Virus record (IMG/VR): IMGVR_UViG_3300032288_000988
Location: 1-20,864 of that record
Strand: one strand, 5' to 3'
Length of the DNA: 20,864 nt
Origin: a virus
Made by a program: the position numbers and the translations under genes
In this document: in pieces, positions 6,927 to 13,632 of the stretch
Layout of the letters: every line of letters starts with the position of its first letter
Numbering within the stretch: the stretch's first letter is position 1
Notes under the pieces: generated by a model
The model's input: the letters and a program-made list of their open reading frames with translations, nothing else
What the model was told of the DNA's origin: nothing
Database searches by the model: none

Positions 6927-7130
6927 TCAGTCATCCTGCGGATCGTCGTGGAACATCGTACCCTTGGTAGCCGCACCGGTACCGCGAGTCTTCACCAGAC
7001 GCTTCTTCTTGGTGCCAGACATGTAGCGGCCCTTGACGCGAACATCGTTCAGGTCAACGTCATTGTCAGGATACCCGGACACATTCTGTACCGGGATCTT
7101 CTTGGGCATACGATAGATCTTCTCGGCCAT
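6927..7130 (-). CDS. Small basic conserved protein (RGTGAATKGT motif)
   Basis: 67 aa, starting MAEKIYRMPKKIPVQNVSGY and carrying PDNDVDLNDVRVKGRYM and KTRGTGAATKGTMFHDD. It is rich in Lys/Arg with an acidic tail, has no hydrophobic segment and is probably largely unstructured. The GTGAATKGT element recurs in small phage proteins that I recall from uncultured aquatic phages. It sits 5 nt after the 61-aa basic gene and 10 nt before the adaptor gene. Function unknown; a nucleic-acid-binding or internal head role is possible from composition only. Confidence 0.8.
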   Translation of the reverse strand: MAEKIYRMPKKIPVQNVSGYPDNDVDLNDVRVKGRYMSGTKKKRLVKTRGTGAATKGTMFHDDPQDD

Positions 7131-7135
7131 GTTGA

Positions 7136-7321
7136 TTACCTCGGGCCAGAGGACTTGCGAACCGGCTTGCGCTGATTCATCGCACGGGCCACGTTACGGC
7201 CATACTTCTTCATTTCACTGGAGGTCACCCCACCAGCCTTGAAGGTCTTGGTTTTGCCGGGGTGCATACGAGCTTCGTGCTTGCTCACTGCAGCCTGCGG
7301 CGACATCTTGGACTTCATCAT
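7136..7321 (-). CDS. Small basic conserved protein (FKAGGVTSSEMKKYGRN motif)
   Basis: 61 aa, strongly basic, starting MMKSKMSPQAAVSKHEARMH, then PGKTKTFKAGGVTSSEMKKY and GRNVARAMNQR. It has a good ribosome binding site (TTAGGAGATAC before the ATG). Its KAGGV element echoes the (K/R)GGxV elements in the small basic proteins at 8739-10121. No enzymatic motif is visible. It belongs to the group of Lys/Arg/Gly-rich proteins scattered through this assembly module. Function unknown. Confidence 0.8.
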   Translation of the reverse strand: MMKSKMSPQAAVSKHEARMHPGKTKTFKAGGVTSSEMKKYGRNVARAMNQRKPVRKSSGPR

Positions 7322-7712: not shown

Positions 7713-8432
7713 TTACCGCAGGAACGTCTCGCGGGGTACGAAGCGCACTGCCGCCTTCTCGCGGTCTTCAGTGGACGCCAACTCCCAAGCCTCGTCGTAC
7801 ATCGCCTTCAGCATCTGGGTACGAGCCTCCGCGCCGGGGATCTTGAGCGACAAGTAGTACGCCAGACCCGCCACCATGCACGGCAGGAACCTGAACGGGA
7901 TATCCTGCCCGTTGATGCCATCCCCCGCGTTCTGCATACGCCGCAGTCGCCAATACACAAAGGTGTAGGTTGTGCTGTTGTCCGGCTTGGGCCAGACCGT
8001 AAACCGAGGCGGGACTGTGGTATTAGCCGAGTCCGTTGCGCCCGTACGCCGTTCGATCCAGACCTGAATAGGACGCCCTGTGGCATTCTTGTTCGGGATC
8101 ATCGCGTAGGTACTGACCGAGATGCGCGTGATATTGATGTCGGTCTGATTGGTTCCCGTACCGGTTCGGATGACATGATCAAGCAGGTCAACGGTATCGA
8201 CCGGTAGGTCGTACGTCCCGTCGTTGTAGGTCAGCAGCTGCTCACCCTGCTCGATGGTCCACATGTTGATGCCACGGTTGGCCCAATCCATCGTCAGCAG
8301 GTTCAGACTCCGCCGTGCGGTACGGAAATCATAGCCCGTACGCAGCTCAGCCCCGCACCGCTCAAACGCTTCTTCAATGATTGCGTTGAGGTCGAGATTG
8401 AAATCCGACAGATCTGTGGTCTTGTATGCCAT
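7713..8432 (-). CDS. Putative head-tail connector / virion structural protein
   Basis: 239 aa. The conserved N terminus has DLNAIIEEAFERCGAELRTG and RTARRSLNLLTMDWANRGIN with WTIEQGEQLL. A beta-rich middle follows (YDLPVDTVDLLDHVIRTG, then GRPIQVWIERRTG and FTVWPKPDNSTTYTFVYWRL). A helical C terminus has FRFLPCMVAGLAYYLSLKIP and ends RFVPRETFLR. This helix-beta-helix order is similar in outline to P22 gp4/SU10-type adaptors and to the 212-aa protein at 6278-6916. It may therefore be a second ring or tail-tube-like component. I recall relatives in uncultured phages annotated only as structural. It is preceded by a 64-nt gap containing alternative hairpins. Confidence 0.85.
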   Translation of the reverse strand: MAYKTTDLSDFNLDLNAIIEEAFERCGAELRTGYDFRTARRSLNLLTMDWANRGINMWTIEQGEQLLTYNDGTYDLPVDTVDLLDHVIRTGTGTNQTDINITRISVSTYAMIPNKNATGRPIQVWIERRTGATDSANTTVPPRFTVWPKPDNSTTYTFVYWRLRRMQNAGDGINGQDIPFRFLPCMVAGLAYYLSLKIPGAEARTQMLKAMYDEAWELASTEDREKAAVRFVPRETFLR

Positions 8433-8496: not shown

Positions 8497-8742
8497 TTAC
8501 ATCCCTTGCTTGCGGTACGGACGGACTTTCGCCTTGATACCTTTGGGCTGCGGGACGAACTGCTTACCTTGGGCTTTTCCTTTTCGCTTTGCGGCAGAGG
8601 TTCTGGCGTACTCGGCTGGGGAAAGAGCTTTGATAGCAGCTTCAGGCAAGTATCTCTCACCCGTGTCAGAAGATCGCTTGCCACTTTTCGTTCTCCACTT
8701 CTGCTGCGTCCAAGCCTTCAAGGACTGTTGAGGGGCTTTCAT
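8497..8742 (-). CDS. Small basic conserved protein (KAWTQQKWRTKSGK motif)
   Basis: 81 aa from ATG 8742, which overlaps the previous stop as ATGA. The frame is open farther upstream, but ATG 8742 gives a normal coupled junction. Conserved parts are KAPQQSLKAWTQQKWRTKSG, TGERYLPEAAIKALSPAEYA and a Lys-rich end (KRKGKAQGKQFVPQPKGIKA) finishing YRKQGM. I recall closely similar small proteins in aquatic phages. Their role is unknown to me. The high Lys/Arg content and lack of membrane segments suggest nucleic-acid contact. It is the last gene of the overlapping basic-protein run and is followed by the only sizeable gap of this region. Confidence 0.85.
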   Translation of the reverse strand: MKAPQQSLKAWTQQKWRTKSGKRSSDTGERYLPEAAIKALSPAEYARTSAAKRKGKAQGKQFVPQPKGIKAKVRPYRKQGM

Positions 8743-9038
8743 CCGCGATACCCTCCACCCTTTTCCTTGTACTTCTTGGCGAGCAGCTGTGCTTTTCTCG
8801 CGCTCCACTGGCCTGCCTTCGTACCCTGCACGGCTCGAGCCTTGATGGAATTGAAGAGCTGTTTGCGCATGCTGGGCTTCGTGTAGTTGCCCGCCGCGTT
8901 GACCTTGCTCTTCACGTCTCCACCCTTCGCGTGCCGGATCGGCTTATCCGTACCGATGACAGGCTCAGTATCCCCGCGCCGTTTCGCACGGGGAACCTTG
9001 GAGGGAGCGATAGCGCCCATGCCACGAGAAGGTCTCAT
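8739..9038 (-). CDS. Small basic conserved protein (GNYTKPSMRKQLFNSIKA motif)
   Basis: 99 aa from ATG 9038. The frame stays open to 9107, but the upstream part lies inside the preceding gene, and ATG 9038 forms a TGATG junction with that gene's stop. It starts MRPSRGMGAIAPSKVPRAKR. Next come an AKGGDV element, then KSKVNAAGNYTKPSMRKQLF, and GQWSARKAQLLAKKYKEKGG with GYRG at the end. I recall this order (MRPSRGMGA, then NYTKPxMRKxLF, then GQWSARKAQxLAK) from many uncultured aquatic phage genomes, where it is hypothetical. It is very basic and helical in the second half. A DNA- or capsid-binding internal protein is an inference. Confidence 0.88.
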   Translation of the reverse strand: MRPSRGMGAIAPSKVPRAKRRGDTEPVIGTDKPIRHAKGGDVKSKVNAAGNYTKPSMRKQLFNSIKARAVQGTKAGQWSARKAQLLAKKYKEKGGGYRG

Positions 9039-9283
9039 CAGACCATCCTGCACCGGGTCTTGCCCTTCTTGGCGATGCCATCGATGACACCACCCTTCTT
9101 GTAGCAAGACATGCCACCCTTGCGCAGCTTCGTCACGCCCGGAGCGTATTCTTCCGCGTGCTTCATCGCTCGATCAGCAGCAAGATTACGGACGCCCGGA
9201 GCGTTTTCTGCGCGCTTAAGCATCTCGCGCATCTTCTCGCCCTTGATCGCAGCGGGGCCAAGACGTCGCATCGGACCGGCCAT
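9038..9283 (-). CDS. Small basic protein ending in shared KKGKT-R tag
   Basis: 81 aa, MAGPMRRLGPAAIKGEKMRE at the start, a helical middle (EYAPGVTKLRKGG) and the C-terminal cassette CYKKGGVIDGIAKKGKTRCR followed by MV. Both junctions are TGATG, overlapping one base with the neighbours. The last 12 residues (AKKGKTRCRMV region) closely match the ends of the two upstream proteins, here with Cys in place of Gly. The protein also has a second Cys in SCYKK. No family was recognised beyond the tag. It may be an internal virion protein or substrate of a shared partner (inference). Confidence 0.82.
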   Translation of the reverse strand: MAGPMRRLGPAAIKGEKMREMLKRAENAPGVRNLAADRAMKHAEEYAPGVTKLRKGGMSCYKKGGVIDGIAKKGKTRCRMV

Positions 9284-9723
9284 CAGACGAACCGTCCCTT
9301 AGTCTTGCCCTTCTTGGCAAGGCCGTCAGCCCGCTTGGAAGCGGAACCGACAGAGCCACCCTTGGCGTACTTCTTGACAGAACCGCCCCGCTTCATACCG
9401 CTAGAAACCTGAGTAGAATCAGTGACAAACTTCTTAGGCTCTCTAGAAAATGCGTCAGTAACGTATTTTTGATCTCGTGGGGAGAGCTTTTCAAAATCTT
9501 GCCCAGCAGACGCCATACGATTACGAGCATAAGCACGATTGTACTTATCCTTGTCATCGCGTTGCGCAGTCACAGTAACTTCTTTGCTATTCCGTTTAGC
9601 CTTATCTTCCGCCGTATCGGTGCTGTACTTCTTGCCCTTGAACTCGAAGGTACCCCCTGCCCCCTGCTCCTTACGGGCAGCGGCGAACGCTTTCTCAAAC
9701 TCGCTCAGTTCACGCTTAGCCAT
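9283..9723 (-). CDS. Basic protein with phage FEKAFAAARKEQG domain and shared C-terminal tag
   Basis: 146 aa. The N-terminal element FEKAFAAARKEQGAGGTFEF with KGKKYST is a motif I know from small phage proteins (an aromatic/basic helix followed by a FxxxGKxYxT strand). The middle is charged and Lys/Asp-rich with DFEKLSPRDQKYVTDAF. The C terminus carries two GG elements (MKRGGSVKKYAKGGSVGSAS) and the terminal tag ADGLAKKGKTKGRFV. The start shares one base with the previous stop (TAATG) and the stop with the next start (TGATG). Function unknown; the tag links it to its two neighbours. Confidence 0.83.
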   Translation of the reverse strand: MAKRELSEFEKAFAAARKEQGAGGTFEFKGKKYSTDTAEDKAKRNSKEVTVTAQRDDKDKYNRAYARNRMASAGQDFEKLSPRDQKYVTDAFSREPKKFVTDSTQVSSGMKRGGSVKKYAKGGSVGSASKRADGLAKKGKTKGRFV

Positions 9724-10121
9724 TAGACGATCCGTCCCTTAGTCTTGCCCTTACGCTCGATACCGCCACCGCGAGCATACTTTTTGACTTTGCTGCCCTT
9801 GGCTTCGGCTTCTTCATGCTTGATCATCGACTTCGGAGCGCCTTTCTTCTTCATGAAGGCGATTTCCTTCTTAATCATCTTCTTGGACTCTTTCATCTCG
9901 CCTCCTCCGGCGAACTTAAAATCGGAACTACCCTTGTTGGTCTTGGGGTTATTGATCCCCGCCTTGAGACCCTTGGCACGGCGCTGCTCCGACAGAGCAA
10001 TGGCAACGGCCTGCTTCGGGTTCGTAACCTTCTGGCCGGACGAGGACTTGAGCTTGCCGGAGCCAAACTCGCGCATCACCTTGGCAACTTTTCCACCCTG
10101 CTTACGCGCCTGCGGATTCAT
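9723..10121 (-). CDS. DUF6496-like basic protein with shared C-terminal tag
   Basis: 132 aa. Residues about 10-50 read KVAKVMREFGSGKLKSSSGQ and KVTNPKQAVAIALSEQRRAK, which I recognise as the DUF6496 pattern (from memory, not searched). The family is found in bacteria and phages and has no established function that I know. A Lys-rich helical part (MKESKKMIKKEIAFMKKKGA) follows, then KKYARGGGI and the terminal RKGKTKGRIV, the same tag as in the next two genes. Its start lies inside the end of the holin-like gene (20-nt overlap). Confidence 0.87.
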   Translation of the reverse strand: MNPQARKQGGKVAKVMREFGSGKLKSSSGQKVTNPKQAVAIALSEQRRAKGLKAGINNPKTNKGSSDFKFAGGGEMKESKKMIKKEIAFMKKKGAPKSMIKHEEAEAKGSKVKKYARGGGIERKGKTKGRIV

Positions 10122-10302
10122 CTTGCTTTCCCTTTTTCAACCATTTTTGGACTGTCTCTGTCTCGTAGATCCGGATCCCAGTCCAGACTATCGTGAACAC
10201 AGCAGCGATTGAAGGTAACATGTCAATTAGTGCCCCAATCACCGTGACGACTGACAGTGCGTCAACAGCATGCTTGGCAGCTTCTGTCTGCTCATGGGTC
10301 AT
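10102..10302 (-). CDS. Holin-like small membrane protein
   Basis: 66 aa from ATG 10302, beginning MTHEQTEAAKHAVDALSVVT. The hydrophobic part spans about residues 15-45 (VVTVIGALIDMLPSIAAVFT then IVWTGIRIYE), one long or two short membrane segments, followed by a charged tail QKWLKKGKQDESAGA. Size, membrane part and basic tail fit phage holins. I recall similar proteins (IWTxIRIYET near the end of the membrane segment) annotated as holin in uncultured phages. ATG 10302 lies one base after the previous stop with GGAA 8 nt upstream. An in-frame ATG at 10353 would add 17 residues (MTLIVVSISLYGHGTAD) overlapping the upstream gene. No endolysin is seen in the window. Confidence 0.72.
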   Translation of the reverse strand: MTHEQTEAAKHAVDALSVVTVIGALIDMLPSIAAVFTIVWTGIRIYETETVQKWLKKGKQDESAGA

Positions 10303-10303
10303 G

Positions 10304-10558
10304 TCAGCAGTTCCATGCCCGTAGAGACTTATTGATACGACTATTAGGGTCATTTGCGGTCTTCGCGCTGGTGAGCTTCTTCTTCATCCCTTTCATGCGG
10401 GCGCAAAATGAGTCACGTCGTTTACCGCCTTCTGGCTGCGGGCGCTTCAGTCCCGGCTTGCCGGGGTTTGCTGCGTTGTATGAGGCACGCCCCTTGGCGT
10501 TCAAACCGCCCTTTGGGTTCTTGCCTTCCTTACGAGTCCATGCCGGTGTCTTAGCCAT
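10304..10558 (-). CDS. Small basic conserved protein, DUF6321-like
   Basis: 84 aa. The pattern TPAWTRKEGKNPKGGLNAKG followed by RASYNAANPGKPGLKRPQPE and GGKRRDSFCARMKGMKKKLT and a C-terminal SRINKSLRAWNC is one I know from phage and bacterial proteins resembling DUF6321 (name from memory, unverified). It is strongly basic with two Cys and no membrane segment. The start overlaps the glycosyltransferase stop by one base (TAATG). It opens the run of overlapping small basic genes. No biochemical function is known to me. Confidence 0.87.
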   Translation of the reverse strand: MAKTPAWTRKEGKNPKGGLNAKGRASYNAANPGKPGLKRPQPEGGKRRDSFCARMKGMKKKLTSAKTANDPNSRINKSLRAWNC

Positions 10559-11313
10559 TACGCTGCATTGCTCATTGTGTCGGAAGAAGGTTTAAGCATC
10601 GGATACAGGATGTCGTTGCCGAAGTCACCCATGTACTCCATCACGCCCATGTGGCCCAGCTTGATCGTTGGATCGACCCAAACTTCAAAGCCCGCAGCGC
10701 GTGCGCGGTCACAGAAGAGGAAGTCCTCACCCATGTAGCCTTGCGGCTCACACTTGAAGTCGAAGAAGGCGTGGAGCATCCGCTCACCAGCCTTGGTATC
10801 GTGGTACCGCCATTCAGGATGTTCATCCCGCAACTTCAGGAATACATCCTTGCGGACCATCATGAAGGCCGTTGCGACACGCTTGGCCTTGACCAGACCC
10901 ATCGCATTCATCGTAAGCGAACCGTCTTCGCCTTCGTCGAGTGTGGCAATGTAGGTCTTGTCTGCACGCCGAACGGTCGGAACGCCTGCCACGATGCCCT
11001 TCTTGGGATCGCTGGTCCACGCCAGAAGGCGGAACACGTCCTGCTCGTCGAAGTTGATGTCAGAGTCGATGAAGAGAAGATCGGTGCAATCGGAGTTCAA
11101 GAAGTCGTCAGCCAGCAGGTTTCTGGCTCGAGATACGACAGAGCATCCGCAGATGCTACCGATTTGAAGATCAACGCCGTGGGCTGCTACCCGCGTAGCC
11201 AGCTTGACCAAAGACACCGCCATCTTGAGCGATACCTTGAAGTCATAGGCTGGCAACGCGAGGAACAGCTTCCGGCCATGCAGGTCGTACGAACGCTGCT
11301 GCTGTGGCTGCAC
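10558..11313 (-). CDS. GT-A fold glycosyltransferase-like protein
   Basis: 251 aa. After KLFLALPAYDFKVSLKMAVS there is a nucleotide-sugar-binding-like region. SRARNLLADDFLNSDCTDLL leads to the metal-binding DxD motif FIDSDINF (Asp83, Asp85). A further acidic motif, MGEDFLFCDRARAAGFEVWV (Glu196-Asp197), precedes LGHMG (His221), the usual order for GT-A enzymes with an ED catalytic acid and a metal-binding His. The enzyme would transfer a sugar from an activated donor. The acceptor is unknown and could be virion protein, host surface or DNA. It lies 3 nt after a small structural gene and overlaps the next basic gene, so it is co-expressed with virion genes. Glycosylation of virion components is inference. 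Confidence 0.85.
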   Translation of the reverse strand: MQPQQQRSYDLHGRKLFLALPAYDFKVSLKMAVSLVKLATRVAAHGVDLQIGSICGCSVVSRARNLLADDFLNSDCTDLLFIDSDINFDEQDVFRLLAWTSDPKKGIVAGVPTVRRADKTYIATLDEGEDGSLTMNAMGLVKAKRVATAFMMVRKDVFLKLRDEHPEWRYHDTKAGERMLHAFFDFKCEPQGYMGEDFLFCDRARAAGFEVWVDPTIKLGHMGVMEYMGDFGNDILYPMLKPSSDTMSNAA

Positions 11314-12237: not shown

Positions 12238-12582
12238 TCAAATGGTCGGCGGGTCAAATAATTTGGGGGCGTAGGTCTTAAGCACGTGGCAGTTTTTGCA
12301 TAGGGTCTGCAGGTTGGCGGGGTCGTTGTTGCGGTGATCCCCGTCGATATGGTCCACATCCAGCTGGGTGTGATGTAGTGCCACGAACCCACATCGCTCA
12401 CATCCGTCCTTCTTGTGCTGGCGGTAATGGAACTTGGGGATGTGCAGTGCCTTTGAATGCCTGCTGCAGTACCGCTTGTAGAACGGGAACCCGAGTTTCG
12501 ACTTCTTGCCACTCGTACGAACCGGATTTTGACACCCCTCAGTCGCACAGGTAGGTCGGGGGCGGGGGGATAGGATGATCAT
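12238..12582 (-). CDS. HNH endonuclease (free-standing homing-type)
   Basis: 114 aa. The first half is basic with possible zinc ligands C12, C17, C39 and H42. The HNH core is clear: CERCGF (C61, C64), LDVDHIDGDHRNNDPANLQT (His78, Asn90) and LCKNCHVLK (C95, C98, His99), a beta-beta-alpha-metal site with a structural zinc. Such nucleases cut DNA at specific sites and in phages often act as free-standing homing endonucleases or assist packaging. Here the gene lies between the capsid gene and the next structural gene, with non-coding gaps of 135 and 96 nt on either side in an otherwise gapless genome, which suggests insertion. No clear ribosome binding site precedes ATG 12582, and a strong terminator lies upstream, so expression is probably low or from its own promoter. 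Confidence 0.92.
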   Translation of the reverse strand: MIILSPRPRPTCATEGCQNPVRTSGKKSKLGFPFYKRYCSRHSKALHIPKFHYRQHKKDGCERCGFVALHHTQLDVDHIDGDHRNNDPANLQTLCKNCHVLKTYAPKLFDPPTI

Positions 12583-12717: not shown

Positions 12718-13632
12718 TTAGGTCGAGCCAGACGAGCCGAAGATGCCCAGCGGGTCAGACCAGCCGAAACTGTAGCGCTCGCGGGCCTTGTAACGGACGT
12801 TGCCCGTATCAAAGTCTCCATCCATCGAGTTCTGCATCGGCGTACGAACGAAGTGCTTCAGGCCGTTCGGGACATCCGTCAGGAGGAACCAGCCGTTCGG
12901 ATCCGTCAGGAAGTGGTTGACCGTGTAGCCTTCCGGAATGCTGCCCATCGCCTTCAGCGCGTTGATGTCATTGTCCGTCGTGCCGACACGGAGTTCCGTA
13001 TCCAGCAGACGCTTAGCAACGAACATCAGGGCCGGGGGGACGACCAGCTTACGGGGCTTGGCAGCGATCAGCAGGCCGCGTTCGTCGGTCCAGCCAGCAA
13101 TCTGAATGACAGCCGCCTCGAGGGAGGTTTCGTTCAGGTCTGCCTGAGTCGTAAACGTGTTGCTGTTGGTGCCACCAGAGACCAGCGGATGCGCCGTATT
13201 GCACAGCGAAACGCCGTCGCCACCGTTGTAGCCGGACGCCTGAAAGGCGTTGTTCAGCACGGAAGCGCCCTTGACCTGCTTGGTGTACGCCATAGCACGG
13301 GCCAGCGCCTTGGTATAACGAGCCGACAGGCTGTCATACAGGTTGTCCTCGACCGCCTCTTCGGTGATCGAGAAACCAAGGGCGATGGTCTCGTGGTTGT
13401 AGCGAGCCGTCCAAGCTTCCTGCGCGTTGTCGTAGGAAATCGCGTTACCTTCCGGCTTGACCGGGGCAGCGCTGAAGCCCGAAAGCTTCGTTTCCTCTTC
13501 AAACGAACGCTCGGAGGTCTCGGTCTCGTAGACTTCCTTGTGCTCTTCGCCGTAGCGAGCGTACTCCATGCCGAACAGGGCATTCAGGCCGGGGAGCAGT
13601 TCCTTAAGTAGTTGTGCGCGTGAAATAGCCAT
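12718..13632 (-). CDS. Major capsid protein, Mu gpT-like
   Basis: 304 aa. The start MAISRAQLLKELLPGLNALF leads to GMEYARYGEEHKEVYETETS, then a loop-rich FSAAPVKPEGNAISYDNAQE and HETIALGFSITEEAVEDNLY. These are the pattern of Mu gpT-like major head subunits in uncultured phages. The middle has LARAMAYTKQVKGASVLNNA, and the C-terminal half has AAKPRKLVVPPALMFVAKRL and NHFLTDPNGWFLLTDVPNGL. The protein forms the capsid shell. A strong ribosome binding site (AAGGAGT) overlapping the upstream stop fits high expression, and the gene ends in its own terminator. Length is normal for the family. The order scaffold, small protein, decoration, capsid is typical. Confidence 0.9.
   Translation of the reverse strand: MAISRAQLLKELLPGLNALFGMEYARYGEEHKEVYETETSERSFEEETKLSGFSAAPVKPEGNAISYDNAQEAWTARYNHETIALGFSITEEAVEDNLYDSLSARYTKALARAMAYTKQVKGASVLNNAFQASGYNGGDGVSLCNTAHPLVSGGTNSNTFTTQADLNETSLEAAVIQIAGWTDERGLLIAAKPRKLVVPPALMFVAKRLLDTELRVGTTDNDINALKAMGSIPEGYTVNHFLTDPNGWFLLTDVPNGLKHFVRTPMQNSMDGDFDTGNVRYKARERYSFGWSDPLGIFGSSGST

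Follow-up and report, generated by a model that had tools for sequence, protein, structure and literature searches.

A C-terminal peptide shared by unrelated small late proteins of lake phages: a candidate docking signal, possibly for virion loading

Why should neighbouring genes that differ in almost everything else end in the same peptide? The question is raised by a 20.9-kb virus record (the whole stretch of DNA analysed, called the window below), which covers the structural module of a tailed phage. Its genes encode a terminase, a portal, a GroES-like protein, a probable scaffold, the major capsid protein (MCP), an adaptor and tail-fibre proteins, assigned partly by homology to annotated relatives. 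No gene for a separate prohead protease was identified in the window. A sequence-only reading had noted three consecutive genes whose products have differing N-terminal parts and a common C-terminal tag following a GG element. These open reading frames were confirmed, all on the minus strand. The relevant features are the following.

12718..13632, minus strand: MCP (phrog_371, major head protein), left boundary of the variable interval and marker of the clade
10304..10558, minus strand: DUF6321 protein (Pfam PF19846), untagged in the window
10102..10353, minus strand: putative small membrane-protein-like ORF (a hydrophobic stretch in the translation), untagged, within the variable interval
9723..10121, minus strand: tagged protein 1, 132 aa, DUF6496 body with a reduced tag, ending KKYARGGGIERKGKTKGRIV
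9726..9785, minus strand: C-terminal tag of protein 1, YARGG-GIE-RKGKTKGRIV, a reduced form with no RADG
9283..9723, minus strand: tagged protein 2, 146 aa, body with the module FEKAFAAARK..FEFKGKKYST
9286..9375, minus strand: full-length C-terminal tag of protein 2, KKYAKGGSVGSASKRADGLAKKGKTKGRFV, which fits the clade-wide consensus
9038..9283, minus strand: tagged protein 3, 81 aa, orphan body
9041..9106, minus strand: C-terminal tag of protein 3, CYKKGGVIDGIAKKGKTRCRMV, delimited by sequence and consensus
8739..9038, minus strand: phrog_17747 protein (E=3e-28), untagged, which closes the tagged cluster
8497..8742, minus strand: phrog_14910 protein (E=4e-32), right-hand boundary gene, kept in relatives
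7713..8432, minus strand: Pam1-like adaptor protein (phrog_12985), homologue of the annotated adaptor of DSL-LC04, right boundary of the variable interval
6927..7130, minus strand: small conserved neck-region protein with the terminal peptide RGTGAATKG

The three tags end in RKGKTKGRIV (protein 1), KKGKTKGRFV (protein 2) and KKGKTRCRMV (protein 3), and are preceded by the elements YARGG, YAKGG and YKKGG, respectively. The composition-based probability that [KR]GKT[KR][GC]R stands by chance at one set position of the C-terminus is about 6e-7 per protein. The tag is real, but longer than the first description had it: the full form spans about 22-30 residues. The earlier description of protein 1 also needs correction, as its N-terminal part is DUF6496 (Pfam PF20106, E=4e-7, 30.7 bits against a gathering cut-off of 24). 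Protein 2 has homologous tagged bodies in loci L275, L277 and L298. Proteins 2 and 3 have no match in Pfam or PHROG.

Full-length BLASTP comparisons among the three proteins yield E-values of 1e-3 to 1e-5, almost wholly due to the last 35-42 residues. Once the tails are cut off, no E-value between the bodies falls below about 1. The genes were checked for being an ordinary paralogous family, and this explanation was ruled out: there is no full-length similarity, and none is detectable between the bodies. At the DNA level the longest runs common to pairs of tags are 21, 17 and 11 nt, the first two being those reported before. The gene junctions GTCTAATGG, GTCTGATGG and GTCTGATGA also bear out the earlier description, each stop codon overlapping the next ATG by one base.

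IMG/VR was scanned with a DNA pattern and searched with proteins, which gathered about 280 loci; genes were called by simple ORF rules. The tag was found on 503 unique small basic proteins in 276 IMG/VR loci. Their consensus is KKGG-x-V-(S)SAS-K-RADG-[I/C]-A-x-[R/K]-GKT-[K/R]-G-[R/K]-[M/F/I]-V-stop. Most copies lie at the extreme C-terminus, and in 388 of the 503 proteins the end is exactly five residues past GKT. The motif is internal in some DUF6496 and SKKQ-type proteins, and in L295:12444-12638, a homologue of window 7136-7321, it occurs as AADGITKKGKTKGRN close to the N-terminal end of a conserved small protein (MAYKSAADGITKKGKTKGRN...). Thus a free C-terminus is not always required.

The tag carriers form a large group of mostly uncultured lake phages. 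At least one marker gene of a single phage lineage is present in 258 of the 260 strict-tag loci. The MCPs of 22 longer tagged contigs are 74-87% identical to that of the window, and TerL, detectable in 20 of them, is 53-78% identical. Since these loci were found partly through the tag itself, only a sample anchored on the MCP can serve as a test of prevalence. In this sample, fetched by the MCP alone and restricted to complete MCP-adaptor intervals, 29 of the 33 intervals of the window type have a C-terminal tag, with a mean of 2.0 tagged genes per interval. The remaining four contain internal or variant copies, e.g. MKGRTKGRIC and KGKTKGKM...C. The concern that most relatives might carry homologues lacking the tag was checked here, and the relatives do carry it. 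In the sister clade of the DSL-LC04 type the tag was observed in none of 40 MCP-adaptor intervals.

Among named phages, the closest relatives by MCP identity to the window are MinM2/Pag-Yong1 (72%), DSL-LC04 (65%) and pelagiphage HTVC027P (64%). MinM2/Pag-Yong1 was traced by searching with full tagged proteins; tblastn searches of INPHARED found nothing with the short tag peptide and only weak matches with an artificial concatenate. Its MCP-adaptor interval has one tagged gene, encoding a 308-aa protein (WEV89192.1, MM2_5) that ends in RDGCAKRGRTKGRFI. The tag probably predates the split between MinM2 and the window clade, its spread over many bodies coming later, an order read from the MCP identities, not from a tree.

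Planktothrix phage Pag-Yong1 has counterparts deposited as MinM2 and Pra-JY27. The records OQ594354.1, OL906435.1 and PP438419.1 do not differ in length (65,014 bp) or in the tagged protein, and name Synechococcus, Planktothrix agardhii and Planktothricoides as hosts. As the MinM2 genome is thus deposited under three cyanobacterial hosts, its true host is uncertain. This phage may be a culture contaminant or may infect an associated bacterium.

A pattern scan of 84,980 prokaryotic genomes returned ten stretches only, and the tag was rejected as a bacterial motif. Two of the ten (L285, L287) come from lake MAGs; both are short contigs that contain several tag copies. The others, judged for the most part by titles and counts alone, look like single chance matches. 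A text search of the literature for the tag peptide returned nothing, and the same was true of DUF6321/DUF6496 and packaging signal peptides.

All C-terminal tags lie between the MCP and adaptor genes in each of six complete or near-complete genomes. In the window, a glycosyltransferase-like gene (10558-11313), present in only some relatives, is directly upstream of the variable cluster. HNH or homing-endonuclease-like genes occur at various points in or beside the interval (window 12238-12582; L302:7662-8252 and 13006-13503), and such insertions are a possible driver of its turnover.

The bodies to which the tag is attached are very diverse. Those of the 503 proteins fall into 163 clusters, of which 119 have a single member; masking affects these counts but not their order of magnitude, and the largest cluster is partly held together by low-complexity sequence. 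A larger and looser tagged set, which includes a few false positives, has 225 body clusters, and the MCP-anchored sample, chosen without the tag, has 66 bodies in 46 clusters. For 110 representative tagged proteins, Pfam and PHROGs gave hardly any functional homologues, and a profile search of PDB sequences produced nothing significant. Even without packaging, a constant peptide on well over 100 bodies that have nothing else in common clearly exemplifies modular recruitment.

The bodies also turn over rapidly. When two phages have MCPs of 85-95% identity, they hold 96-97% of a set of twelve core genes in common, as against about 2% of their tagged bodies; the genomes for this comparison were picked from tagged contigs. 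Even at MCP identity above 95%, only 30% of tagged bodies are shared.

Body and tag can be separated. Orthologous bodies exist with the tag, without it, or with a different terminal peptide. In the sample, DUF6321 is tagged in 13 proteins (e.g. in L104 and L160) and untagged in 142. A body that starts with MPxYRKPTxKE has the tails KGQGRVIRSKKTRIC or RGQGAARKTKGCKIC in the sister clade and the GKT tag in the window clade. In DSL-LC04, a protein with a body 45% identical to a tagged one has a different tail.

What is conserved in the tag is the peptide. At its invariant residues nearly all synonymous codons are used and third codon positions vary widely. The earlier proposal of a recognition peptide on unrelated bodies is strongly supported: there are many bodies, one clade, one slot, a terminal position and conservation of the peptide. 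It is probable that the tag is recognised by some specific conserved partner.

Three other explanations were considered. One is a non-specific nucleic-acid-binding tail, basic and protamine-like, with which small late proteins would coat phage DNA or RNA or condense it. The tail and the bodies are indeed strongly basic, the bodies having a median pI of 9.9 (above 9 in 92%) and about 13% lysine, and the genes sit in the late structural module. AlphaFold2 models of proteins 1 and 2 are folded over a small N-terminal region (pLDDT about 80), and the tail holding the tag is disordered and of low confidence; residues 95-146 of protein 2 are mostly below 50. However, the residues D, G, A, G, K, T and the terminal hydrophobic residue are kept at fixed positions, and a non-specific basic tail would tolerate scrambling. 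We consider this explanation unlikely.

Secondly, the docking partner might lie outside the virion. The phage co-chaperonin, host machinery or a protease reading the tag as a C-degron could be that partner, and the timing, folding or stability of diverse late proteins would be controlled in this way. Recognition ends often consist of basic residues followed by a hydrophobic, free C-terminus (cf. the ClpX C-motifs), and the GroES-like gene is kept across the clade. However, a C-degron would not need the upstream RADG and KKGG, and the confinement of tags to the MCP-adaptor interval in the six genomes favours a partner in morphogenesis. Docking outside the virion thus seems quite improbable.

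Finally, the shared DNA and the stop-start junction might be a recombination cassette that allows genes to be swapped with translational coupling retained, the peptide itself being functionless. Runs of at least 17 nt occur in 23% of within-genome tag pairs, among them pairs from the window, against 3% of pairs between genomes, so that tags are sometimes copied or exchanged as DNA. The shared patches have sharp borders, with identity falling to background beyond about 75 nt upstream and 15 nt downstream of the stop codon. On the other hand, the median run shared within genomes is 9 nt, and synonymous codons match about as codon usage predicts (somewhat more at some glycines), hence DNA identity is not what is conserved. 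The stop-start overlap is common but not universal: it occurs in 20 of 36 tagged genes from a set gathered mostly without regard to it, somewhat more often than in neighbours, whose rate is lowered by the simple ORF picking. Counts from the DNA pattern scan were not used here because the pattern required the overlap. Given free variation of synonymous sites under conserved amino acids, the opposite of selection for DNA identity, and an overlap absent from many tagged genes, the cassette is weakly supported and, as the main function, largely refuted and very unlikely: tags are occasionally copied as DNA and maintained as a peptide.

Returning to recognition by a specific partner, the tag may well be a targeting signal at the C-terminus by which interchangeable late proteins attach to one shared partner, most likely so that they are loaded into the virion. 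The low-confidence tail of the models and the high pI of the bodies count for this reading as well. The MCP-adaptor interval would then be a hypervariable cargo locus where small basic late proteins come and go, many of them sharing a flexible basic tail of roughly 25 residues (KKGG, then RADG-[IC]-A-x-[KR]-GKT-[KR]-G-[RK]-Phi-V). The tail would be read at the protein level by a conserved head or neck component, most likely the MCP, scaffold, portal or adaptor. The tagged proteins would be built into or loaded inside the virion and delivered with the DNA, and their diverse bodies could be host-specific effectors or DNA-binding proteins. Capsid loading is a plausible role for the tag, and we give virion loading and delivery of the tagged proteins an even chance. 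A broader proposal, which we put forward tentatively, is a general C-terminal cargo-address system, where any small protein gaining the tail would become virion cargo; hundreds of effectors would have been recruited at one locus, and sister clades would use other terminal peptides and other partners.

The link of tagged bodies to the virion is indirect, by homology. DUF6321 forms the C-terminal part of SSCSM1_29, a 517-aa 'virion protein' of Synechococcus phage S-SCSM1, and of a 'structural protein' of Sf-FS3. Mass spectrometry identified 45 virion proteins of S-SCSM1, according to the searched text of PMC9602691; gene 29 is not named in that text, and hence its mass-spectrometric status rests on the GenBank product name. 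The largest tagged family has the SKKQ body, which matches the N-terminus of PHROG families annotated 'virion structural protein', and also gene 165.1 of phiKZ (PHIKZ165.1) and a 'structural protein' of phage Eowyn. As DUF6321 and SKKQ proteins of other phages have no tag, virion association of these bodies does not need it.

The closest analogue is in phage T4. The T4 capsid-targeting sequence (CTS) is N-terminal and is cleaved by gp21. The lake-phage peptide lies at the opposite, C-terminal end and is unrelated in sequence. In both cases a short conserved terminal peptide is all that is common to small hypervariable late proteins with unrelated bodies, in T4 the internal proteins IPI, IPII and IPIII, and the turnover of bodies between close relatives (about 2% shared, against 96% of core genes) is also of the T4 type. 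The lake phages have far more bodies, however, and the window yielded no candidate for a separate protease gene. The internal proteins of T4 are a highly diverse set in which the CTS alone is conserved (PMC3012670). The CTS is described as bringing the proteins into the scaffolding core and, according to the title of Mullaney and Black, permits proteolytic processing (see also PMC9391042). Packaging is proven for T4; for the lake-phage tag it is inferred. The tag thus resembles the T4 CTS in architecture, but is neither homologous to it nor a member of the T4 system.

The jumbo phages phiKZ and SPN3US carry many cargo proteins inside the head as head or ejection proteins (PMC5694885, PMC7411985). 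The SKKQ body domain of the tagged family occurs in phiKZ and in the Eowyn protein too, but these jumbo-phage proteins are without the tag: what they share is the body. The small basic phage proteins DUF6321 and DUF6496 are optional carriers, and the tag is also found on many bodies matching no family.

If the tag is a packaging address, virion cargo would be predictable by sequence alone in abundant uncultured phages, for proteins that mostly lack a family assignment. It would then define an effector locus in which to seek anti-defence proteins, and the T4 CTS would have a compact counterpart at the C-terminus. The relative Pag-Yong1/MinM2 makes a direct test of virion loading possible.

Several other peptides bear some likeness to the tag. 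The sister-clade terminal peptides (KGQGRVIRSKKTRIC, RGQGAARKTKGCKIC, RGTGAATKG) follow a KGG element, are rich in basic residues and glycine, and occur on an orthologous body, as the tag does. However, in the sister genomes listed they are present on one protein only, whereas the window clade has an array of tagged proteins, and their homology to the tag is not established. In the window, the neck-region protein at 6927-7130 and its homologues (e.g. L295:12644-12865) have RGTGAATKG...ARGPMA at or near the end, alignable with RADGCATKGKTKGR; a relationship between the RGTGAATKG peptide of the window protein and the tag is possible.

A histidine-rich variant of the motif, GEHxVQKKGHTK[AG], is present in SKKQ and other bodies (L428:11870-12550, L429, L185); the region with this GHT variant has no meaningful match among isolates. 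Lastly, the N-termini of many tagged proteins from many loci have a basic-aromatic-GG element (MKKRKVKRYDEGG, MKRKTRKFYEGG) that resembles the KKYAKGG preceding the tag.
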